DNA of 43,770 nucleotides. Source: Bacteroidota bacterium (GTDB taxonomy: Bacteria > Bacteroidota > Bacteroidia > Bacteroidales > VadinHA17). Shown here piece by piece: positions 1,305 through 28,944 of the stretch. Both the position numbers and the translations under genes were made by a program. Within the stretch, counting starts at the first letter, position 1. The number at the start of each line of letters is the position of its first letter. Under the pieces are notes generated by a model. It had not been told where the DNA came from, did not search any database, and saw nothing but the letters and a program-made list of their open reading frames with translations. The stretch is from positions 1 through 43,770 of the forward strand of contig JAUZNW010000008.1 in assembly GCA_030706785.1 (NCBI GenBank), written 5' to 3'.

Positions 1305-2519
1305 TTAAGAAGCCTTCTTTATCGGAAGCAATGAGACAATTAGTGCCCCCGCGGCAGCCACGCATATCAGGATGGTAAATCCCAGGGTATAATTCCCGTG
1401 AATATCATGAAGTCTTCCAAGAAGCATTGGAAACATTGATTCAGCAACACCATCAGCGACCAGGATTATGCCCATTGTCCTCCCTAGCGCGCGTATTCCA
1501 AAAAGGTCGCCTGCCATAAGAGGGATGATCATATAGTCTCCGCCCAGTCCGATACCGAATATCAGTGCAAAAATATAGATGCGGCCCGGGAAATCAGTGA
1601 TCAGCAATAATGGGATAGTCGCTCCTACTATCGTGTAAATCAGGATCATCACGTACTTCCTGGGAAAGATATCGGCCAGCCATCCCATCAGCACCCTACC
1701 CACAAGACTTGAAAGGAGTACAAGCGAAATCACATGAGCTGCCTGAGTCTGGGAAAAATCAAGGTCTCTCAGGAAGAGCTTGAGGTGCTGATTCACGCCG
1801 CCAACTACACCAATGGCACACATGCTTCCTATGGCCAGGAGATAGAAGTTACGGTTTGTCAGTATATTCCTGACCGGAACAGCAGGTTCATGAGCTACCT
1901 GGCTGCTGACTGCCGGATTGGATCCCTTGATGAAAAAAACCATCGGGAAAGCAATCAGAATGACGAGTACACCCAGGGCTGCAAGCGAATAATGCCAGCC
2001 ATAGTTTTTCTCGAAAGATGCTGCGATCAGCGGCACTATCGCCCCGCCGGCTCCGATGCCAAGATATGCGATACCCATTGCTTTACCGCGGTTTTTATCG
2101 AACCACCTCGAGATCAGCACCTGGCAGGGCAGGGGCCCTCCGCATACATAGCCCAGAGCGTTGAAAATATAAAAAAGGTAAAATAATCCCGGTGACCTGG
2201 CAAATCCTAATCCGATAAGCGCTGCAGCCATCATCAGCACCCCCGCCATCATCAGTTTCCTTGGCCCGTATTTGTCAATAAGCCAGCCTGCAATAAATCC
2301 AAAGAGTGGCCCAACCAGGAGCTTCCCCAGCGCATTTCCTGAGGTGACAAAAGTGCGTGACCATCCATATTCTCTGGTCATAAAATCGAAAAAGAAGGGT
2401 AGCCCGTAGAACGCAAAGCCGACCAGGGCAAAGAGTGATAAAAATGCTGTTAAGACTATATATGTTTGTGAACTTCGTGACGAAGAATTTGTGCTGTCGT
2501 GCTTAATAAATTCGGGCAT
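1305..2519 (-). CDS. MFS transporter, oxalate/formate antiporter (OFA)-like
   Basis: This 404-residue protein has about 12 hydrophobic segments and the two MFS loop 2-3 motifs: GWLIDKYGPRK (about 79-88) in the N-half and GRVLMGWLADIFPRK in the C-half. The best family match by eye is the oxalate/formate antiporter and monocarboxylate-carrier branch, which moves small organic anions across the inner membrane. It is the last gene of the six-gene minus-strand operon, 12 bases after the DapA-like lyase, so it probably imports the acid or sugar acid that the operon handles. The start ATG at 2519 precedes a polar serine-rich N-terminus. A short palindrome (AAGAAG C CTTCTT) overlaps the stop codon. 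The transported substrate cannot be read from the sequence. Confidence 0.88.
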   Translation of the reverse strand: MPEFIKHDSTNSSSRSSQTYIVLTAFLSLFALVGFAFYGLPFFFDFMTREYGWSRTFVTSGNALGKLLVGPLFGFIAGWLIDKYGPRKLMMAGVLMMAAALIGLGFARSPGLFYLFYIFNALGYVCGGPLPCQVLISRWFDKNRGKAMGIAYLGIGAGGAIVPLIAASFEKNYGWHYSLAALGVLVILIAFPMVFFIKGSNPAVSSQVAHEPAVPVRNILTNRNFYLLAIGSMCAIGVVGGVNQHLKLFLRDLDFSQTQAAHVISLVLLSSLVGRVLMGWLADIFPRKYVMILIYTIVGATIPLLLITDFPGRIYIFALIFGIGLGGDYMIIPLMAGDLFGIRALGRTMGIILVADGVAESMFPMLLGRLHDIHGNYTLGFTILICVAAAGALIVSLLPIKKAS

Positions 2520-2531
2520 ATAAAATGTGTT

Positions 2532-3596
2532 TTATGAGAGCCATTTGTCAAGGTTATCAGCAACAAATGAATCATCGTTGAGCTCCGGATATGACTTATA
2601 GACCCTGTCTATTTCCTCTTTTTGTCCCCGTGAAAGCCTTTCTTTTCTGTCGAGGGTCCAGATCCCCTCAAGCAGTCCCTGCCTGCGAAGAACTTCATGC
2701 AATCCGGTAATGCAACCTTTAAAGTTATTAGCCGCATCAAAAAAAGCCGCATTGCAGTCTGTGATCCTGCCGGCTAGTGCCAGCGCACGCCCTGTATTAT
2801 TATCAAATTCACCATTTTGCACTGATTCCAGGAGCTTTACAGCCTTTTGAGTCCATACCGCCCAATGTCCAAGCAACCCGCCAACTATGCGCTTACTCAC
2901 TGTAATGTTTTCAAACGGGATCCTGTATTCAGTCAGAAGATCAATCAGAATGTTATCGTCGTTGCCTGTATAAAGGGCAATCTCATCTGCCCTGCCGGAA
3001 GCAACAACGCCCCTCACCACATCGAGCGTCTGATACCTGTTGAATGGTGCTATTTTTATCGCAATTACGTTTTGAATACCGGCAAATTCCGTCCAGAAAT
3101 CCAGATCAAGCTTTCTTCCTCCGACAGCCGGCTGGAGGTAAAAGCCAAATATTGGCATTATTTCCCCTACAGCTTTGCAATGCCTGATCAGAATGCTGTT
3201 TGAAGAATCCCTGAAGGCGCCAAGTGAAAGCAGAACAGCATGATATCCAAGTTTGCCAGCTATTTCAGTTTCCCTGACAGCCTGTCTGGTTTTTCCGAGC
3301 ACACCTGCAACGCGGACAACCGGTTTCCCGGTAGAGCGGACAAATCTGTCTGTTTCTTCCGAAGTAATCTTTAATATGGGAGCGTAAAGATTAAATTCTG
3401 GTAATCTTATTGCAAACTGGGTCGTATGAACGCCTGCTGCTATTCCTCCGGCACCGGCATCAAGATAATACCTGATAATAGCTCTCTGACGCCTTTCATC
3501 CAGTTTGCGTTCCCAGTTTAGGGCCAGAGGGAGTGCAGGTATGACAATACCCTTATTTATTGCCACCCTGATAGCTACAGGTACAGGATTGCCCAT
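2532..3596 (-). CDS. Dihydrodipicolinate synthase/N-acetylneuraminate lyase (DapA) family protein
   Basis: The 354-residue protein is a TIM-barrel class I aldolase of the DapA/NanA superfamily. The Schiff-base lysine is visible as K181 in IAIKIAPFNRY and the conserved tyrosine as Y153 in GFYLQP. The usual substrate-carboxylate motif GTTGE is replaced by GVHTTQF (about 55-61), so it is unlikely to be the biosynthetic DapA. It is longer than typical DapA (about 290) because of a C-terminal helical extension. Placed in an operon with a Gfo/Idh oxidoreductase, an enolase-superfamily enzyme and an epimerase, it most likely cleaves or dehydrates a 2-keto-3-deoxy sugar acid. That role is inference; the superfamily is clear. 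Confidence 0.85.
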   Translation of the reverse strand: MGNPVPVAIRVAINKGIVIPALPLALNWERKLDERRQRAIIRYYLDAGAGGIAAGVHTTQFAIRLPEFNLYAPILKITSEETDRFVRSTGKPVVRVAGVLGKTRQAVRETEIAGKLGYHAVLLSLGAFRDSSNSILIRHCKAVGEIMPIFGFYLQPAVGGRKLDLDFWTEFAGIQNVIAIKIAPFNRYQTLDVVRGVVASGRADEIALYTGNDDNILIDLLTEYRIPFENITVSKRIVGGLLGHWAVWTQKAVKLLESVQNGEFDNNTGRALALAGRITDCNAAFFDAANNFKGCITGLHEVLRRQGLLEGIWTLDRKERLSRGQKEEIDRVYKSYPELNDDSFVADNLDKWLS

Positions 3597-3606
3597 TACT
3601 TAATTC

Positions 3607-4644
3607 TTAGTATTTTCCGTTCCTTGTTTCAAAATGAGTTGGCTTCTCCAATAATCGGCCTCCATCCTTCAGCCATTCTGCTAACCATTCAATTACCTGG
3701 CTTGCCGGTACTTTTGGCTTGCCAAATAAGCTGAACGCTTTAGCAGCATCGCTCAGAAGAGCTGTTTCAGATTCAGTATTCACAAACTCGGGTGTTACTC
3801 CGAAATGTTTTCCAAAATCCAGTGCCACTTTACGAACAGAGAGTGTTTCAGGTCCGGTAAGATTAAGAATTTTTGCCGGGCATTTAGTATGTTCAAGTGA
3901 TCTCAGAACAAAATCATTCATGTCCCCCTGCCAGATCACATTGAAATATCCCATTGATAGATCTACGGGTAGTTTATTTTTAACCCTGACGCCAATATCT
4001 GTCAGAACACCGTAACGCATTTCAACGGAATAGTTTAAGCGAATCAATACTACCTCTGTTCCATATTTGCTGCTCCCGTACTGGAACATCCTTTCCCTGC
4101 CAAGACACGACTGGGCATACTCACCCAATGCATCTGGTGCATTTGTTTCGACTGAGCCCGTTGAATTAACAGGTACCAGCGGATAAATACATCCTGTTGA
4201 AAAGACTACGATCCTTGAGTTGCGGAATCTGGATGAGACCAGGGCAGGCAGATAAGAGTTAACAGCCCATGTCAGCGGGAGATTATCGCTTGAACCGAAT
4301 TTCATGCCAGCCAGATAAAAGATGTTCTTAAACTCCGGAAGATTGTTCAGGAATCCGTTGTCAAGAAGATCACCACTAATGGTTTCAACGCCGAAATCTT
4401 CGATCTTGCTTTGCTGTTCAGGTGAATCAAACATAGCAACTCCGATAATGCGCTTTCTGACGCCGGATTCATCACAGGCTCTTTTTGCCATTCGGGCAAG
4501 GTAAGGACCGATCTTACCTGAGACACCCAGGAACATTATATCCCCGTCAATGCGTGAAAGCGTTTCAACAACCTCAGGACCTGGTCTTGAGAGCAATTCA
4601 TCAAGTGCCTCCTCATCATGTATCTTATCAGCGAATTCTTTCAT
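3607..4644 (-). CDS. NAD-dependent epimerase/dehydratase (extended SDR)
   Basis: A Rossmann-fold extended short-chain dehydrogenase. The nucleotide loop is GVSGKIG near the N-terminus, the serine-type position is in VVFSTGCIYPLV, and the catalytic YxxxK appears as YGSSK. I start it at the ATG at 4644 (345 residues); a TTG two codons upstream is in frame but has nothing to favour it. It lies 10 bases upstream of the DapA-like gene and 21 bases downstream of the DoxX fusion, within the operon. Its N-terminal strand begins only after about 30 residues of helical sequence rather than at the very start as in most epimerases. It probably acts on a sugar or sugar acid in the cytoplasm, as no signal peptide is present. 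Confidence 0.85.
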   Translation of the reverse strand: MKEFADKIHDEEALDELLSRPGPEVVETLSRIDGDIMFLGVSGKIGPYLARMAKRACDESGVRKRIIGVAMFDSPEQQSKIEDFGVETISGDLLDNGFLNNLPEFKNIFYLAGMKFGSSDNLPLTWAVNSYLPALVSSRFRNSRIVVFSTGCIYPLVPVNSTGSVETNAPDALGEYAQSCLGRERMFQYGSSKYGTEVVLIRLNYSVEMRYGVLTDIGVRVKNKLPVDLSMGYFNVIWQGDMNDFVLRSLEHTKCPAKILNLTGPETLSVRKVALDFGKHFGVTPEFVNTESETALLSDAAKAFSLFGKPKVPASQVIEWLAEWLKDGGRLLEKPTHFETRNGKY

Positions 4645-4665
4645 GTGCAAATTCCCATCTGCGGC

Positions 4666-6177
4666 CTATCCTCTCCATGGCCTTGTCCGGTTCACAATCG
4701 CCAGTGAATCGAGGACTATGTTGCAATCCTCAACTACCTGGAAGTCGTACATGCCAACGCAGATGAAGTCAGCGCCATTGTTGAATGCATACTGAACGCC
4801 GTCTTTCGGTTGAATGGCCCCGGCGGCGAGGATCTTGAATCCGATCCAGGGTTCTTCAAGGGCATTCATGTAACTGATAGTTTCCTGAGGCGTGAAATCA
4901 AAAATATTGTCCTTGAACTCTTTATCGACAGTGGTTTGCCGTTCAAGGTCAACCTTTGCAGACCAGTAATTATGGTGATGAAGGGTTTTAACCCAGAAAT
5001 CTGGCTTGATGCCCCGCTCCACACAGCCTTTGATAGTCTCCAGCCTGTGGGCTCCGATACCTGCCGGCCTTCCTGACTTCCGGATCAATTCGAGGTATTT
5101 GATTATCTCATCATATTTACCGTCGTATGTCAGCCTGTCTGCCACTCCTCCCTGGACATAGATGGCACTGGCACCTCCTTCAACCGATCTCCCTATCAGT
5201 TCCTCGCTAACTCCGCCATCGGAGATAAATTTCATTTTCCCTCCCGTTTCGTGCCAGTACTTGTTTATGATCCTGCTGAGCATAGGGTGGGTCAGGATCG
5301 CATTGATCCCGCATTTTTCCGCCAACTGCATGGTCATCATCACCTTATTGTCAGTATGGTAGGCTTTTACCAGCTTGTCGGTATAAATAAGATCACGGGC
5401 ATGTGACCATCCCCCGATCAGATTGCCTCCCATGATGAGACGGCTGATTTCCAGTCCCGCAAGCTTACCCTTTGGTATCTGCCCTTTAAGCTCCCCCAGA
5501 GATGTAAAGGTGAAGGTCTTCATTGTTGCACCTGAAACTGCATCAACATTTCCCGTAAGGAACTTTTTTTCATAGCTGTCCCATCTCTTTTTCCTGTAGA
5601 TAGCGTAGGCAAAAGCACCAAGTAAAGGAAGAGAGATCAGATCTCGTATCAGTTCACGTCTCCCGGATGAAACATTATCTTTAGCCACTGAAGGGACAGG
5701 TGCATGAGGTTTCTCTTCCTTCCATCTCTTTATCAGCCGGTCAGCGCCATAAAAGAAATCTGAAGGAAGCGCGGCAAATACCAGAAGCACCGCAAGTTCG
5801 ATGAGGTTCTTGTCTACCCACATGTAGTTACCCTCGGCCACTCCCCCGAACGTATATCCCGGGATTGGCGGATATGCAATGAAGTAGAAAAAAAGCATAA
5901 CCGCTCCGGCAATGGAAGACCATCTTACCAGCAATCCTGTAAATAATGATAGTCCGATAAGGATCAAACCCCATTCATTCAGAAAATCAACAGCTTTGAT
6001 AACCATTGGGGAATCAGCCATACGGTGAAAGATGCCAGAAAAGATCCAGTTGGATCCGAGGAGGTACATCCTTGCGCTCCATCCCGATGTAAGTAGTTTG
6101 GATATGCCCTCATAAAGGAAATGCCAGCCCAACAGGATCCTTAATCCTGTTAACAGATAGATTAAATATTTCTTCAT
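4666..6177 (-). CDS. Fusion: DoxX membrane domain + twin-arginine-like anchor + TIM-barrel enzyme domain
   Basis: Three parts are visible in 503 residues. Residues 1-150 are a DoxX-type four-helix membrane domain with GWHFLYEG (17-24), VDFLNEW (63-69) and DKNLIELA (122-129). Residues 172-194 hold GRRELI, a hydrophobic stretch with PLLGAFAY, and a basic stop, which looks like a Tat-type or ordinary signal anchor. Residues about 220-503 are a soluble domain starting like an aldo/keto-type barrel (LEISRLIMGGNLIGGW), with DFICVGMYDF near the C-terminus, consistent with a TIM barrel of unknown activity. The second DoxX gene in this window (28444-28944) is clearly homologous to the first part, and the Gfo/Idh protein beside it carries the same GRRE anchor. 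DoxX proteins are related to the quinone-interacting subunit of thiosulfate:quinone oxidoreductase. I infer a membrane-tethered redox enzyme; the reaction is unknown. Confidence 0.82.
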   Translation of the reverse strand: MKKYLIYLLTGLRILLGWHFLYEGISKLLTSGWSARMYLLGSNWIFSGIFHRMADSPMVIKAVDFLNEWGLILIGLSLFTGLLVRWSSIAGAVMLFFYFIAYPPIPGYTFGGVAEGNYMWVDKNLIELAVLLVFAALPSDFFYGADRLIKRWKEEKPHAPVPSVAKDNVSSGRRELIRDLISLPLLGAFAYAIYRKKRWDSYEKKFLTGNVDAVSGATMKTFTFTSLGELKGQIPKGKLAGLEISRLIMGGNLIGGWSHARDLIYTDKLVKAYHTDNKVMMTMQLAEKCGINAILTHPMLSRIINKYWHETGGKMKFISDGGVSEELIGRSVEGGASAIYVQGGVADRLTYDGKYDEIIKYLELIRKSGRPAGIGAHRLETIKGCVERGIKPDFWVKTLHHHNYWSAKVDLERQTTVDKEFKDNIFDFTPQETISYMNALEEPWIGFKILAAGAIQPKDGVQYAFNNGADFICVGMYDFQVVEDCNIVLDSLAIVNRTRPWRG

Positions 6178-6203
6178 TTTGAGGATTATATTTTATTTAA
6201 AAT

Positions 6204-7592
6204 CTAAGAATTGAACATGTCAAGGTAGTGCCTTGAAGACTTCAGCACACCGCCGCTTTTCTCATAAAAATCCCTGTCAAGATGATATATTCCATTCCTG
6301 GACTCAATCCATGACCCGTCAGGGTACGGACAGTAACTTACAAGTTCCTTCCAGTTACTGTAGTTCTGATAGCCATTTGATTCCAGTAATCCCATTTCCT
6401 TCAGACCCGGGAACGGTGCAAGACGTGCTGCAACATTTTTATTCCAATCAACAAGTATAGGAGTACATGTCAGATCGGCAAGGAAGCAAGGCACATTGTT
6501 TTCATGAGCGACTTTTGCCATCTTCATTGTCATGCTCAACGTTTTAGCAGCTGCCTTTAAGGCTATTGCTTTATATCCCATCTGTATCCTTTTAACTACA
6601 TCCTCTGCAGTGTGGGCACTTTCATCCGCTGCTATCCTGACACCGAGTTCCCCTGCATTTATATCAGCTTCTTCCGGAAAGGGCTCTTCGATAATAGCTA
6701 TCTGATCGAACATCCCAATCTTTTTTGCATGATCAAGTAGCTTTTCCAGAGTCTCCTTTTTCTCGTACCTTCCGTTCGCATCGAAATAATAAGGTATTTT
6801 CCCGTTTAGTGTATGGGGCGTTTCCCTCATACCAATTGACTTATGTATACTTTCGATACGTGCCTTGTCTCCCTCCAGCATTTCTTCCTGAGTTCCCGGA
6901 CGGCCAATTTTTATTTTCATAAAAAAATACCCCTGGTCAATCGCCTGGGAAACCTCTTCAAGCGGAATGCCGTAAGCCATAAGTGGGACATGAGCTACAT
7001 ACTGATAGTGATTTCCAAGAGCTTCCCTGTATTCCAGCGGTATCATTTCGTCAAAATTCCTGAAACCATTTTCCTGGGCATACAGCATCCACAATGCGTT
7101 ATCCAGCGCCACCATTGAGCTTAGAGTAAAGGTCATTCTCAGGTTTGTCCTTCCGGTAAGTGACTGACCGTATTTGTGCACGTCAGTAAGAATTTCATCC
7201 TGGACCTCAATAGGGCTCCTGAAGGTTTTGCCCTTTATTCTTTGCAGAGCATAATCAAGTGTTTTAACCTGAAGAATATTCCCTTCAGCTTCTGAATGAG
7301 CCAGGAACACATCAAGATCACTCCAAGCGAGAGCCTGGGTCTGCAAGCCCACATGCCTGATGCCGGAAGCGCTTTCAAGCATCGCCAGGGCCATCCACAT
7401 TTCATTCATGTAGACACCTTTAAATCCAAAGGGCCGGATAAACGGCTCTTTCTCAAAGCTTACACCAACAGACTTTATCGTAATATTGGCTGTTCCCCAT
7501 TTGCAGGAGGAAATCAGTGGTGGTATTCCACTTCCGAGTGCTGCAACTCCGGCTATGGCTGTGGTCCTGACAAATTTTCTTCGGGATAGCAT
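6204..7592 (-). CDS. Enolase-superfamily enzyme (mandelate racemase/muconate lactonizing type), Tat lipoprotein
   Basis: The 462-residue protein begins SRRKFVRTT, a twin-arginine signal, followed by a lipobox-like LISSC with C30, so it is probably exported folded and lipid-anchored. The enolase-superfamily active site is readable: KIK at K226/K228, metal ligands D271 (YYFDANG), E302/E303 (IIEEPF) and D323/E324 (AADES), and a lysine K346 on a later strand (IALKAAAK). KxK plus a second lysine is the muconate-lactonizing/dipeptide-epimerase arrangement rather than the His-Asp of mandelate racemase, so epimerisation, cycloisomerisation or dehydration are all possible. It sits 9 bases after the Gfo/Idh gene and 26 before the DoxX fusion. 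An exported enolase-superfamily enzyme is uncommon, because most family members are cytoplasmic. Confidence 0.88.
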   Translation of the reverse strand: MLSRRKFVRTTAIAGVAALGSGIPPLISSCKWGTANITIKSVGVSFEKEPFIRPFGFKGVYMNEMWMALAMLESASGIRHVGLQTQALAWSDLDVFLAHSEAEGNILQVKTLDYALQRIKGKTFRSPIEVQDEILTDVHKYGQSLTGRTNLRMTFTLSSMVALDNALWMLYAQENGFRNFDEMIPLEYREALGNHYQYVAHVPLMAYGIPLEEVSQAIDQGYFFMKIKIGRPGTQEEMLEGDKARIESIHKSIGMRETPHTLNGKIPYYFDANGRYEKKETLEKLLDHAKKIGMFDQIAIIEEPFPEEADINAGELGVRIAADESAHTAEDVVKRIQMGYKAIALKAAAKTLSMTMKMAKVAHENNVPCFLADLTCTPILVDWNKNVAARLAPFPGLKEMGLLESNGYQNYSNWKELVSYCPYPDGSWIESRNGIYHLDRDFYEKSGGVLKSSRHYLDMFNS

Positions 7593-7601
7593 AATTTGTA
7601 A

Positions 7602-9023
7602 TTACAGTTTCCAGGGCTTCCTGTACTCGTAATGAAGGAACTTATTTGCCTCTTCAGAATTGGTAAAGACCTCATTCTCAGGATTCCATTCCAGACGCTG
7701 TTTTACCTTCATCGATATTGTTGCCAGATGTGCCATATTTGTTGAATAATGGCCGTCCTCAAGCGTACACATAGTTTTTTTCTCCCTCGATTTTATACAA
7801 TCAAGAAAATTCCGTACAAGATTGGCCGTAGGTTCAGCATAGGTCCCATCTGTAAGTTTCCCTTCACCTGCCGGCTCAGGCTTGAATTCTTCGGCATCCA
7901 TAAGCTTGTCCCATGTCTGGAATTGTCCTTTTTGAGTCGGAATGACCTTATAATCACCGTTTCCTCCTGCCCAAAGAGTTCCATTGGTACCACGGAACTC
8001 AAGAAGTCCATAAGGAAAGAATCCCCCTGAAGACGCTTCCAGAGTACTGTAAGTGAGGATAGTACCTGAAGAAAACTCAAAGATTGTACTCATGGTGTCA
8101 GGTATCGTACGGTCGTCATCCACTACTTTTTTCCCTCCAATAGTGGTAATGACTACCGGAGCCTTTTCGTTAAGGAACCAGCGGAAAAGATCGAGAAAAT
8201 GGACTCCCTGATTGGCGATCTGGTTATCGTACTCTTCCCACCAGCGGAACATATATGGGGCAATATTATACTGGTAGGGCCGGTATGGCTTTGGGCCAAG
8301 CCACATATCCCAGTTGAAGTCCTTCGGCGGTTCCTCTGGTTTAAGTTTTCCTATTCCGTTAGGGTACATATTTGAACAATAGCCTCCCGAGGCATATGTG
8401 ATCTTTCCTATCTTTCCTGCAGGTATTTCTCTGGCCAGCCTGTGAAATGAACTTGTACCACGACGACTCAGTCCGACCGTCACAACCTGCCTGCTGTTTT
8501 TCCAGGCATTGATCATTGCCCTTCCTTCGACTATCGTCTTGCTGAGCGGTTTTTCAACATAGACATCCTTTCCGGCCTTCAGAGCCTCAATTGTCTGGAT
8601 TGCATGCCAGTGGTCAGGCGTCGCTATGCATACAGCATCAATGCTCTTGTCTTCCAGCATTTTCCTGTAATCAGAATATCTTGCGACATTATTGGGAAAA
8701 ACCTCTCCCATTTTCGGTACAAGGCTGGCAAGCTGCTTTAAATACCTCGGATCGACTTTTGAGTAATCGCGGTTCAGATAAGGCTCATAAATATCGCACA
8801 GACCGGCGATTTCGCAATCGGGTTCATTCATGAACAGATTCAGGACCTGGGAACCACGGTTCCCAACACCTATGAATCCAATCCTTATTTTATCATTGGC
8901 TCCTGCTGCTCCAGACTTATTTGCAGTACTCAGTGCGGTTTTCCCGATCGTAAGCCCGGCAGCGGCGATACCGGTTTTTGTGATGAATTCACGGCGTGTT
9001 GAAAGATTGCTTCGTTTTTCCAT
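7602..9023 (-). CDS. Gfo/Idh/MocA family oxidoreductase with Tat signal
   Basis: First gene of the six-gene operon. From the ATG at 9023 (473 residues) the N-terminus carries STRREF, a twin-arginine signal with a hydrophobic core, so I prefer this over an in-frame TTG 9 codons upstream. The Rossmann loop GFIGVGNRG follows at about 49-57, then ATPDHWHA and VEKPLSK, whose lysine is the catalytic EKP residue of the family. The C-terminal part is the Gfo/Idh beta-sheet domain with WWEEYDNQIANQGVHFLD. Tat-exported members carry tightly bound NAD(P), as in Zymomonas glucose-fructose oxidoreductase. It probably oxidises a sugar or polyol outside the cytoplasm. Substrate is not determined by the sequence. 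Confidence 0.93.
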   Translation of the reverse strand: MEKRSNLSTRREFITKTGIAAAGLTIGKTALSTANKSGAAGANDKIRIGFIGVGNRGSQVLNLFMNEPDCEIAGLCDIYEPYLNRDYSKVDPRYLKQLASLVPKMGEVFPNNVARYSDYRKMLEDKSIDAVCIATPDHWHAIQTIEALKAGKDVYVEKPLSKTIVEGRAMINAWKNSRQVVTVGLSRRGTSSFHRLAREIPAGKIGKITYASGGYCSNMYPNGIGKLKPEEPPKDFNWDMWLGPKPYRPYQYNIAPYMFRWWEEYDNQIANQGVHFLDLFRWFLNEKAPVVITTIGGKKVVDDDRTIPDTMSTIFEFSSGTILTYSTLEASSGGFFPYGLLEFRGTNGTLWAGGNGDYKVIPTQKGQFQTWDKLMDAEEFKPEPAGEGKLTDGTYAEPTANLVRNFLDCIKSREKKTMCTLEDGHYSTNMAHLATISMKVKQRLEWNPENEVFTNSEEANKFLHYEYRKPWKL

Positions 9024-9096
9024 GATTATTTCGTTCTGGTTATCGGTCAAAGGATTTTGCTAAGGTAAGACATTACCATTTTCAGCAGTTACTAAC

Positions 9097-26780: not shown

Positions 26781-28439
26781 CTAGCCTCTTACAATCTCCT
26801 CTTTGTCTTTATCCCAGTACATCGTGCGCCCTTCCAGGTATGCCCTTGTGCCCATATGTGCAGTTATTGCTTCCATGAAAGCCTGATCGATATTGCACGA
26901 AGGTGCCTGCCCCTGACGTATGCATTCCAGCCATTCCCTCAGGTGAAGATGGGTTGTATCGTACCTCTTGCCGTTGACATAAGTATACAGCAGCCCTCTT
27001 TGTGCAAAATAGAGCTCAGTTGCAGAAGTAACAGCATCAACCTTGCTTTGTCCGGGTACATAAGTAAAGAATGGCTTGTCGGTCGGTATGATCCCCTTCC
27101 TGATCTTATCAGCATATCTTTCGGATTCCGGATCGGCAGTGATCATAAGAACGTCCGAAACCTCCATTGATGCGTCGTGTCCCATGAAAACCTTGCCCCT
27201 GTTGCGTGCGCTTGCGAGTGTCGCGCTATAGAGCATTGTCATGTTCCTGTCGGGCCATTCAAAGGTGGTCTGAAGAACATCCGGAACCGTCCTTCCGTCC
27301 TTGAAGAAGTAAATCCCTCCTGATGATGCTGCGGAATGAGGTATTCCAACGTGCAGGATCTGATTCACAGCATCATATTCATGTGTCAGAAGGTCACCGG
27401 AGAGACCTGTACTGTAATCCCACCAGCAGCGCCAGCGGAAAAAGCGTTCAAGGCTGAACTTGCTTCGTTCGTCCGGACCCATATAACGCTCAAGTTTCTG
27501 AGATTTCATATACTCTTCATACTCTCCGATGCGTCTGGGATCACCCTCGAACTGCTTCCAGTCGATCGTCTGGGGGTTCGATCCCTCGATGATAGGATAA
27601 ACCCAGGCTCCGTTGGGGTCATTACGGTTTGTACAAACCTCGATAAGTGAAATATGGCCAAGAAGGTCGTTCTTTATAATCTCAGCAGCTTTCTGGTACG
27701 ATGCAGTCTGGCGCCCCTGGTGACCCAGCTGAAAAACTATTCCTGCCTGCTTTACTGTATCCCTGACAATATATGTTTCCGGAACTGTCCACGTGGCAGG
27801 TTTTTCACAATAAACATGCTTGCCTGCTTTTGCAGCAGCCATTGTGATTGTACCGTGCCAGTGGTCGGGAGCGGCGATGATCACCGCATCAATATCATCG
27901 GCTGCCAGCAATTCCTGGTATGTCCCATAACGTTTAGGAGAAGGTCCGAATTTCCCGTTTGAACCTTCCCTGTTTATGTTTGAACCTGTCAGCCTTGCAG
28001 CATCCGAGTATTTGTCAAAAATATCGCACACTCCGCTAACCACAACATTAAGATCATCCTGCTCCCTGAACTGATCATACCGCGTATCATCAGGATTCTT
28101 CTTTTTAGCTTCGATCAGTGTGTCGATATATGAAGGCTCTGCATAGCCTAACCCTCTCATTAGCTGCCTTCCGCGGATGCCGAATCCGATAATTCCGATC
28201 CGGATCTGCTTTCCGCCTTTCTGTGGCTGAAGGTAAACAGCATTGGCATTGCTCAGATTAAAGACATCTGAAATATCTCGATTGACGAACTTTGTTTTTC
28301 TCGTTTTAACAACCCCGTAAGCCATAGCTCCCAGAAGCGGAACCGTAGCCAGGGTTTTAATCACCTCACGTCTCCCTACCTTCTTTGGTTTAGCTTTTTC
28401 CTGGTTACCTGATGTATTATTTATATTTTCTTTTTCCAT
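26781..28439 (-). CDS. Gfo/Idh/MocA oxidoreductase with GRRE-type signal anchor
   Basis: A 552-residue oxidoreductase, longer than most family members (330-450). Residues 22-43 hold GRREVIKTL then PLLGAMAYGVV, a Tat-like or uncleaved signal anchor almost the same as that inside the DoxX fusion at 4666-6177 (GRRELI, PLLGAFAY). The Rossmann loop is GIIGFGIRG (about 82-90), followed by APDHWHGT and CEKPATW with the EKP lysine. The C-terminal domain contains WWDYSTGLSGDLLTHEYDAV. It lies 4 bases downstream of a DoxX gene in the same direction. I infer an enzyme held at the outer face of the inner membrane and linked to DoxX. Substrate unknown. Confidence 0.92.
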   Translation of the reverse strand: MEKENINNTSGNQEKAKPKKVGRREVIKTLATVPLLGAMAYGVVKTRKTKFVNRDISDVFNLSNANAVYLQPQKGGKQIRIGIIGFGIRGRQLMRGLGYAEPSYIDTLIEAKKKNPDDTRYDQFREQDDLNVVVSGVCDIFDKYSDAARLTGSNINREGSNGKFGPSPKRYGTYQELLAADDIDAVIIAAPDHWHGTITMAAAKAGKHVYCEKPATWTVPETYIVRDTVKQAGIVFQLGHQGRQTASYQKAAEIIKNDLLGHISLIEVCTNRNDPNGAWVYPIIEGSNPQTIDWKQFEGDPRRIGEYEEYMKSQKLERYMGPDERSKFSLERFFRWRCWWDYSTGLSGDLLTHEYDAVNQILHVGIPHSAASSGGIYFFKDGRTVPDVLQTTFEWPDRNMTMLYSATLASARNRGKVFMGHDASMEVSDVLMITADPESERYADKIRKGIIPTDKPFFTYVPGQSKVDAVTSATELYFAQRGLLYTYVNGKRYDTTHLHLREWLECIRQGQAPSCNIDQAFMEAITAHMGTRAYLEGRTMYWDKDKEEIVRG

Positions 28440-28443
28440 AGTT

Positions 28444-28944
28444 TCAGATTAAAAATTTACGAAAACCGGCAGGCAGCACTTTGCAAAGGAATCTGTCAAA
28501 CCCGATAACCCGTGCTGACGGGAATACAAATAAAACGCCCAGGGCTGCAAGCTCAACGAGATTTTTGTCGATCAGGAAATATGACCCTTCAAAGGGGAGT
28601 TTATATTCGACTCCAATGAGTGCCGGGTGCGACATAGTGTAAAGCAACAGCAGAAGGATGCCGCCTATGCATGAGAGGCGCGAAAAAAAACCGAGCAGTA
28701 ATCCAAGTCCTATTACCACCAGTGCCCATTCGTTGAGAAAATCGACAGACTTCATCACGAGGGGATTACCGGCCATATTTACGAACATGTGGCTAAACCA
28801 GCCTTTTGAGTCTATAAGGTAAGCCGATGCGGTCCAGTTCGGGTTAAGTACTTTTACCAGTCCTTCATAAAGGAAATGCCATCCGATAAAGATACGCAAT
28901 ACCACCAGCCAGGTGAGCTGGCCCTTTGATAGGTTGTTTTCCAT
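28444..28944 (-). CDS. DoxX family membrane protein
   Basis: A 166-residue four-helix membrane protein. It shares with the DoxX part of 4666-6177 the motifs IGWHFLYEG (about 20-28), KSVDFLNEWALVVIGLG and DKNLVELA, so the two are paralogues. DoxX/DoxD proteins include the quinone-reducing subunit of archaeal thiosulfate:quinone oxidoreductase and otherwise poorly characterised membrane redox partners. It is 4 bases upstream of a Gfo/Idh gene, the split form of the arrangement seen as a fusion in the first locus. No clear promoter was found in the 167 bases upstream. Confidence 0.88.
   Translation of the reverse strand: MENNLSKGQLTWLVVLRIFIGWHFLYEGLVKVLNPNWTASAYLIDSKGWFSHMFVNMAGNPLVMKSVDFLNEWALVVIGLGLLLGFFSRLSCIGGILLLLLYTMSHPALIGVEYKLPFEGSYFLIDKNLVELAALGVLFVFPSARVIGFDRFLCKVLPAGFRKFLI

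Follow-up and report, generated by a model that had tools for sequence, protein, structure and literature searches.

Genes and Features of the Locus

The stretch of DNA analysed here, referred to as the window, comprises the 43,770 nucleotides of contig JAUZNW010000008.1 (assembly GCA_030706785.1, a Bacteroidota bacterium of the order Bacteroidales) and belongs to a draft genome of 3.65 Mb in 299 contigs. It contains a gene pair encoding a DoxX-family membrane protein and an oxidoreductase of the Gfo/Idh/MocA family (below, Gfo/Idh) and, elsewhere, a gene in which a DoxX domain is fused to an unclassified domain (Table 1). Both the Gfo/Idh protein and the fusion carry a twin-arginine anchor and a motif similar to that modified by the flavin transferase ApbE. 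Designations beginning with L, C and G denote our loci, contigs and genomes.

Table 1. Features of the DoxX–Gfo/Idh pair and of the DoxX fusion in the window.
Feature	Position	Strand	Details
DoxX-family membrane protein	28444–28944	−	166 aa; four membrane helices predicted by hydropathy; Pfam
Spacer between DoxX stop and Gfo/Idh start	28440–28443	−	4 bases
Gfo/Idh/MocA oxidoreductase with twin-arginine anchor	26781–28439	−	552 aa; Pfam, conserved residues
Twin-arginine signal anchor of Gfo/Idh	28290–28382	−	KVGRREVIKTLATVPLLGAMAYGVVKTRKTK; uncleaved-looking; positive charges behind the core
ApbE-type flavinylation-like motif of Gfo/Idh	27018–27038	−	DAVTSAT, residues 468–474; motif as defined in passages of PMC12052999
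Fusion: DoxX, twin-arginine fifth helix, flavinylation motif, unclassified domain	4666–6177	−	503 aa
DoxX domain of the fusion	5725–6177	−	residues 1–151
Twin-arginine anchor (fifth membrane helix) of the fusion	5575–5670	−	twin arginine at residues 173–174
Flavinylation motif of the fusion	5524–5544	−	DAVSGAT, residues 212–218, directly after the anchor
Unclassified domain of the fusion	4666–5499	−	residues 227–503

An earlier sequence-only reading of the window had placed a DoxX gene four bases ahead of the Gfo/Idh gene, and the open reading frames (ORFs) agree with this. The window DoxX matches Pfam DoxX (PF07681) with 25.3 bits and the fusion does so at residues 9–97 with 24.0 bits (cut-off 23.6), while the Gfo/Idh protein matches GFO_IDH_MocA with 52.7 bits (cut-off 24). 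The C-terminus of the window DoxX is predicted to lie, probably, in the cytoplasm. Translational coupling across the 4-base gap is likely; in relatives the gap is mostly −4 to +30 nt.

To describe the Gfo/Idh partners, we aligned 96 distinct ORFs of more than 450 aa, excluding shorter edge fragments and loci L004, L015–L019 and L104–L155. Residues G85, G87, K213 and H353 are present in all 96, G90 in 95 and D349 in 94. The Rossmann glycine motif, the Lys of EKP, the D-x-x-x-H motif and the fold all place the protein in the Gfo/Idh family. The AlphaFold2 model (mean predicted local distance difference test score, pLDDT, 77) matches Gfo/Idh structures in Foldseek with E 5e-18 and resembles nicotinamide adenine dinucleotide (NAD)-dependent glycoside hydrolases (8qc5, 8qc2) and glucose-fructose oxidoreductase (GFOR, 1h6d). 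Residues 465–470, at the motif, have pLDDT values below 50 and appear in the model as a flexible stretch.

Association of DoxX with Its Partners

The sequence-only reading had proposed that one anchor stands before two unrelated catalytic parts, each with a DoxX partner, and had named a lack of co-occurrence between DoxX and these enzymes as evidence against a module. We observed the opposite. Among the best 80 of 93 confirmed Gfo/Idh relatives (60–83% identity; mainly Parabacteroides, Dysgonomonas, Proteiniphilum and uncultured Bacteroidales), DoxX lies directly upstream on the same strand in 76, and in the remaining four (L029, L091, L094, L098) the contig breaks off 74 nt ahead of the Gfo/Idh gene or within it. 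The 76 include L048 and L095, where DoxX lies in broken frames, and L060 and L081, where only the end of DoxX is present at the contig edge.

A profile of the DoxX subfamily yielded 12 hits across 9 of the 395 genomes sampled from the phylum, with at most nine candidates scored per genome, 29 matches in 23 of 23 carrier genomes, chosen for having the pair, and 32 matches in 16 of 99 genomes of the order, of which four, from the genome of the window, had already been counted, leaving 28 further ones. All 69 matches (12 + 29 + 28, with at least one genome counted twice) are either fused to the unclassified domain or same-strand neighbours of the Gfo/Idh subfamily. The pair also occurs in other families of the class and phylum (L100–L102, with DoxX 39–42% identical, and L192–L195). 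Taken together, these data make it virtually certain that the DoxX–partner module is real.

A pairwise alignment of the two DoxX domains of the window, one of the checks proposed at the outset, gave 45% identity over 143 residues (E 2e-38). The catalytic parts of the fusion and of Gfo/Idh are not detectably related (hhalign probability 1.1%), and no natural DoxX–Gfo/Idh fusion was found in the genomes searched. The description of the two as fused and split forms of one arrangement therefore does not hold, and the argument that fusion indicates interaction is not directly applicable to Gfo/Idh. The more general statement that DoxX serves exported NAD(P)-binding or redox enzymes (NAD(P) denoting NAD or its phosphate) is supported as far as a recurrent DoxX–enzyme module is concerned; for the fused domain, an NAD(P)-binding or redox nature is at most putative. 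That reading had noticed neither the twin-arginine character of the anchor nor the ApbE-like site of both enzymes, and these features allow a narrower interpretation.

Several loci deserve separate mention. At L190 (35–2105, −), in a Proteiniphilum genome that also holds a normal pair, Gfo/Idh precedes DoxX, so that the order is reversed and adjacency is kept. A 720-aa frame on C37 of G622 was considered as a DoxX–Gfo/Idh fusion and rejected, as the DoxX stop codon precedes Gfo/Idh. At L048 (4379–5996) apbE and DoxX are in broken frames, as are DoxX and Gfo/Idh at L095 (2321–4497); decay or assembly error is possible in both.

The Unclassified Domain of the Fusion

A search of the same 99 genomes with the fused domain alone found it 17 times at E ≤ 1e-10, in 8 genomes and always within a DoxX fusion. 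Pfam searches of 21 fusions at E ≤ 1 gave, besides DoxX-type families, nothing in more than three members (HTTM in three; single matches at 0.013 or worse). Profile matches in the PDB were weak (8ebc, 0.081; IMPDH 1pvn, 0.41), and the NCBIfam IMP dehydrogenase model PRK07107 matched 5 of 14 members, at best with 0.0036. From these PDB and PRK07107 matches the domain is perhaps TIM-barrel-like; we left it unclassified. Assignment to the aldo/keto reductases, an impression gained by eye, was rejected (hhalign probability 0.3% against the aldo/keto reductase encoded in the window). Searching IMG/VR for the fusion returned no relatives.

The genome of the window contains two more DoxX fusions outside the window, L103 (583–2142, +, on C144), with DAISSAS in place of the SGAT form of the motif, and L184 (5199–6572, −, on C270), truncated by the contig end. 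The Gfo/Idh protein has 16 matches in this genome, a single gene accounting for two, and there is one DoxX-family gene (C81) besides the pair and the fusions.

The Twin-Arginine Anchor

The two anchors read GRREVIKTLATVPLLGAMAYG and GRRELIRDLISLPLLGAFAYA, as quoted in the sequence-only reading, which had considered them closely similar. Among the 96 Gfo/Idh partners, R24, P34 and G37 are invariant and R23 is present in 94 (one Lys, one Cys); the twin arginine is present in 21 of 21 fusions. A hidden Markov model (HMM) trained on the anchors of 93 Gfo/Idh partners and no fusions recognized all 21 distinct fusions with 10.5–41.4 bits, compared with 8.4 bits for the best unrelated ORF (all ORFs of at least 50 aa in 196 records), which supports the proposed similarity. 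The best Gfo/Idh paralog scored 2.7 bits (n = 71; the same clusters supplied 55 of these, of which many are one syntenic second Gfo/Idh, and the genome of the window supplied nine).

In the 23 whole genomes, all picked as carriers, 44 anchor matches at E ≤ 1.3e-5 were found, 25 in Gfo/Idh partners and 19 in fusions, and 42 of the 44 are DoxX-linked. The profile used for this search (A6) held three fusion anchors, so its fusion matches are partly by construction, and the fusion-free HMM is the clean test. A fusion (G670, C115) and a split pair (G622, C50) fall below this line, with 20.0 and 17.4 bits, respectively. The results from the fetched loci and the carrier genomes indicate that the anchor is largely specific and not a generic Gfo/Idh signal; a wide occurrence of the anchor on Gfo/Idh proteins without DoxX, which would have spoken against a module, was not observed in them.

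The layout of the anchor, with the twin arginine followed by [LI]-K, a weak hydrophobic core and then K/R, is Tat-like (twin-arginine translocation). The twin arginine lies ahead of a hydrophobic core, as in Tat substrates, and TatC is encoded in the genome of the window and in 45 of 47 carriers. In the fusions, four DoxX helices are followed by a cytoplasmic linker, the twin arginine and the fifth helix, whose mean Kyte–Doolittle value by simple hydropathy is 1.42 over the 21 sequences, against 1.84 for the DoxX helices, with one to five K/R behind it. According to passages of PMC5449189, a last helix of low hydrophobicity after the twin arginine, with positive charges behind it, characterizes proteins targeted by both Sec and Tat, and the fusions show these properties. 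From these sequence features we infer that the element is very likely a Tat anchor.

The Flavinylation-Like Motif

The motif recognized by ApbE is given in passages of the review PMC12052999 as D-x-x-[S/T]-G-A-[S/T]. All 21 fusions have D-x-x-[ST]-[GS]-[AS]-[TS] behind the anchor, with D, [ST] and the final T/S in 21 of 21, G in 19 and A in 20. The strict motif is present in 18, the fusion of the window included; the exceptions are L103 and L186 (DAISSAS) and L178 (DAVSGST). By comparison, of 633 other ORFs with a length of 250 aa or more in the same loci, five contain it at any position, two of these being copies of one protein. Judging from this conservation, the fusion is probably flavinylated.

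The Gfo/Idh partners have the related form D-x-x-[TSA]-[ST]-[AP]-[TS], with D468 and T/S474 conserved in all 95 rows that align there; the remaining row, L092, is empty at this site. This wide pattern matches 95 of 96 partners versus one of 71 paralogs, in which it lies elsewhere in the sequence; an earlier, narrower pattern recognized 88 partner ORFs out of 146, a total that counts fragments and repeats, and none of the 71 paralogs. For the Gfo/Idh partner, we consider the predicted flavinylation to stand at even odds.

A flavinylation-like motif is also present at L100 (7220–9499, +) in a probably secreted peroxidase-family protein (KatG-like by eye), where VDAYTGATKKSS lies just after a signal-peptide-like start; the gene is located 283 nt behind a DoxX–Gfo/Idh pair.

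Linkage to apbE and tatC

The apbE gene is present within the cluster in 14 of the 80 Gfo/Idh relatives, and in 10 of 48 when only loci extending 3 kb or more before and 4.8 kb or more behind are counted. At L055 the order is DoxX, Gfo/Idh, apbE, with 12 nt separating the last two, and of these three products Gfo/Idh alone has the motif; at L048 apbE stands ahead of the pair, in broken frames; and in the Dysgonomonas type apbE follows Gfo/Idh together with a second Gfo/Idh, a PF06439 gene and a xylose-isomerase-like gene. In the 14 apbE clusters, a search with the wide motif hit the Gfo/Idh partner and otherwise nothing except flanking ORFs of L055, L066 and L093. The tatC gene follows in 9 of the 80 relatives. 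Linkage of the pair to apbE and tatC is thus observed in some relatives.

Proposed Mechanism and Alternatives

To our knowledge, DoxX proteins are common and mostly lack an assigned function. At E ≤ 1, the 23 members of the subfamily match DoxX (23), MauE (19) and DoxD (15, at best with 1.8e-5); the DoxX of the window scores 12.7 bits against the DoxD profile (cut-off 22.7). R17, E27 and K31 are invariant and E119 and K127 nearly so. On the basis of the DoxD family neighbourhood and these polar residues, DoxX may be quinone-linked, with the chances evenly balanced. Heme binding by DoxX was rejected: the histidine of the first helix is replaced by Tyr in several members and H106 is merely nearly invariant, so that there is no invariant histidine pair.

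Gfo/Idh enzymes bind NAD(P). The Tat system moves proteins that are already folded and loaded with their cofactors, GFOR among them. We propose a two-part envelope redox module in which Tat-anchored periplasmic oxidoreductases bearing flavin mononucleotide (FMN) pass electrons to quinone via DoxX, and assign to this reading a probability of roughly 55%. In this model, the partner enzyme would fold in the cytoplasm, where Gfo/Idh would take up NAD(P), and would then be exported by Tat, the uncleaved twin-arginine anchor of low hydrophobicity holding it in the membrane beside DoxX; in the fusion, the twin-arginine helix would serve as the fifth membrane-spanning helix of a protein targeted by both Sec and Tat. 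Periplasmic ApbE would attach FMN covalently to the conserved Thr/Ser of D-x-x-[S/T]-[G/S]-A-[T/S]. The enzyme would oxidize its substrate, the FMN on a mobile loop would receive the electrons, and DoxX would supply a docking or reduction site on the quinone side. An enzyme that keeps NADH trapped in the periplasm depends on an acceptor, which the FMN loop together with a quinone site of DoxX would supply. The substrate of Gfo/Idh is probably a glycoside or sugar, since PF06439 (3-keto-disaccharide hydrolase) is adjacent in some relatives and passages of PMC9007349 point in the same direction.

A more specific version of the model, in which DoxX would be an unrecognized partner for flavinylated exported enzymes and both the Gfo/Idh protein with NAD(P) and FMN and the DoxX fusion of another fold would feed the menaquinone pool by way of one DoxX subfamily, is put forward only tentatively. 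If this version is correct, it would explain how periplasmic enzymes with a non-exchanging nicotinamide cofactor are re-oxidized and would give part of the DoxX family a function.

A number of observations weigh against the proposed redox module. Neither a quinone site nor a conserved pair of histidines was identified in DoxX, and its fold matches to gamma-carboxylase (9l20, E 4.9) and VKOR (6wv4, E 4.0) are insignificant. No apbE was found at the fusion loci, and most apbE-linked loci show one synteny (Dysgonomonas and kin), so we counted them as three arrangements. At the genome level, ApbE is present in 44 of 47 carriers versus 29 of 30 non-carriers and TatC in 45 of 47 versus 29 of 30; being near-universal, their presence permits the model and does not support it, and in the carriers G622 and G724 (the latter 93% complete) neither was found, nor was ApbE in G628. 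Two Gfo/Idh partners with anchor and motif, L244 (1312–2910) and L245 (5225–6790), have no neighbouring DoxX; their genomes each carry this DoxX elsewhere, and both genes stand behind glucosamine-phosphate-deaminase-like genes (named by eye). Two further anchor matches, L246 (4328–5266, −; 21.3 bits) and L247 (4791–5702, +; 18.2 bits), overlap the weakest true members; these are Tat-type proteins of about 300 aa that are not Gfo/Idh and lack this type of DoxX beside them. Finally, the Gfo/Idh partners depart from the strict ApbE motif: all 95 have Ser/Thr where the motif calls for Gly, 31 of the 95, most of them from Parabacteroides and its kin, have Pro instead of Ala, and three have Ala at the fourth position. 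Their Asp and Thr could be kept for reasons of fold.

These substitutions would fit a structural loop in Gfo/Idh, with only the DoxX fusions flavinylated, so that DoxX and the anchor would be shared and the chemistry would differ. The effect reported for one model protein in passages of PMC12052999, where G-to-A or A-to-V replacement cut flavinylation to about 50%, is in line with this. On the other hand, Ser occupies the Gly position in the fusions L103 and L186 too, Pro variants have apbE in the cluster (L060, and L048 with its broken frames), all 95 keep T/S as the last residue of the motif, and linkage to apbE is seen for the Gfo/Idh form and not for the fusions. We regard a purely structural loop as rather unlikely.

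Alternatively, DoxX could be a docking or assembly receptor for Tat-anchored enzymes that carries no electrons, with Gfo/Idh recycling its bound NAD(P) internally, as glucose-fructose oxidoreductase and NAD-dependent glycoside hydrolases do. The anchor is indeed kept with DoxX beyond the needs of Tat, as seen from the invariance of P34 and G37, and is specific to DoxX partners in the fetched loci; moreover, the Gfo/Idh model resembles enzymes without an outside acceptor (8qc5, 8qc2, 1h6d). What this explanation leaves unaccounted for is the ApbE-type site in both unrelated partners and apbE in the cluster, and each enzyme has its own membrane anchor, so that DoxX is not needed for tethering. 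We consider it unlikely. Ordinary operon inheritance in one Bacteroidota lineage, with no physical or functional interaction, is highly improbable: the 80 loci are dominated by close relatives and the subfamily is rare in the phylum sample, but further families of the class and phylum have the pair, adjacency is kept where the order is reversed (L190), and DoxX is also fused to a second enzyme bearing the same anchor.

Neighbouring Genes and Other Records

The fusion lies in an operon-like run of the window (1305–9050, −) with an MFS transporter, a DHDPS-like protein, an enolase-superfamily protein and another Gfo/Idh, which we infer to be a sugar-acid type cluster. The enolase-superfamily protein (6204–7592) and this Gfo/Idh (7602–9050) are also led by a twin arginine. 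For an ORF at 3607–4650, searches against Pfam and NCBIfam gave nothing at E ≤ 0.001.

The pair is plainly labelled in one P. distasonis record as DoxX family membrane protein and Gfo/Idh/MocA family oxidoreductase. In another P. distasonis record (L249, NZ_OY725768.1 122176–137605), 388 kb long and labelled plasmid, lpxB, surE and cytochrome bd oxidase genes surround the pair, and the record resembles a piece of chromosome; CydA-like genes (named by eye) are neighbours of the pair in L026 and L036 as well. At L073, a Bacteroidota-type pair lies on a contig with a coverage of 1.5 that was assigned, probably wrongly, to a Desulfoplanes bin.

Comparison with Known Systems

Among the open-licence PMC papers listed in searches for DoxX with Gfo/Idh, flavinylation or quinone, PMC9331221 mentions DoxX; two DoxX proteins are among those of raised abundance in PMC13104607, with no mechanism offered in the passages concerned.

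3-Ketoglycoside metabolism offers one point of comparison. Like the 3-ketoglycoside pathway of Bacteroides (BT_2158 family, PF06439), some clusters of the module hold PF06439, a second Gfo/Idh and a xylose-isomerase-like protein; passages of PMC9007349 term the DUF1080 (PF06439) protein BT2157 a 3-ketotrehalose hydrolase. Unlike the BT_2158 family, the Gfo/Idh of the window has the special anchor, the motif and DoxX, and it scores 111.6 bits against the glycoside 3-dehydrogenase model (NF058561), whose curated cut-off is 750, so that it is not a member. The window pair is flanked by an aminotransferase and a radical SAM gene, with no 3-ketoglycoside-type neighbours. If the model is correct, sugar oxidation of 3-ketoglycoside type in gut Bacteroidota may connect to the quinone pool.

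The thiosulfate:quinone oxidoreductase DoxDA reduces quinone. Its Pfam neighbourhood of DoxX, MauE and DoxD is common to both systems, which were compared by DoxD only; unlike in DoxDA, the partners of the present DoxX are Gfo/Idh or the fused domain.

As to topology, the fusion shares with polytopic dual Sec-Tat proteins (actinobacterial Rieske proteins, Sco3746, polyferredoxins and YkuE-like proteins, according to passages of PMC5449189) the twin arginine, the weak last helix, the positive charges and the exported C-terminal domain, and has five helices like Sco3746. It differs in that four DoxX helices come first and that a flavinylation-like motif and an unclassified domain would be exported; the main text of PMC5449189 contains no occurrence of DoxX.

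The closest known kind is that of ApbE-flavinylated extracytosolic systems (Nqr, Rnf, NosR, PceC, fumarate reductase, DUF2271, DUF3570, Flavodoxin_4, FMN_red), in which an exported redox protein with a D-x-x-[S/T]-G-A-[S/T]-like site works with a membrane partner, and apbE can sit directly downstream, e.g., behind the Nqr operon (passages of PMC12052999, PMC8238504, PMC11334425 and PMC5655446). DoxX is not found by search in the flavinylation surveys PMC8238504 or PMC11334425, and neither the Gfo/Idh fold nor the fused domain is named as an ApbE substrate in the portions of the flavinylation literature consulted. The putative ApbE-type site in both unrelated partners is new, and suggests flavin-based extracytosolic electron transfer with a new membrane partner, a so far undescribed route into the membrane. 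If this is correct, one membrane component and two enzyme folds are added to flavin-based electron transfer outside the cytoplasm, and the function of the DoxX subfamily becomes directly testable in cultured Parabacteroides and Dysgonomonas.

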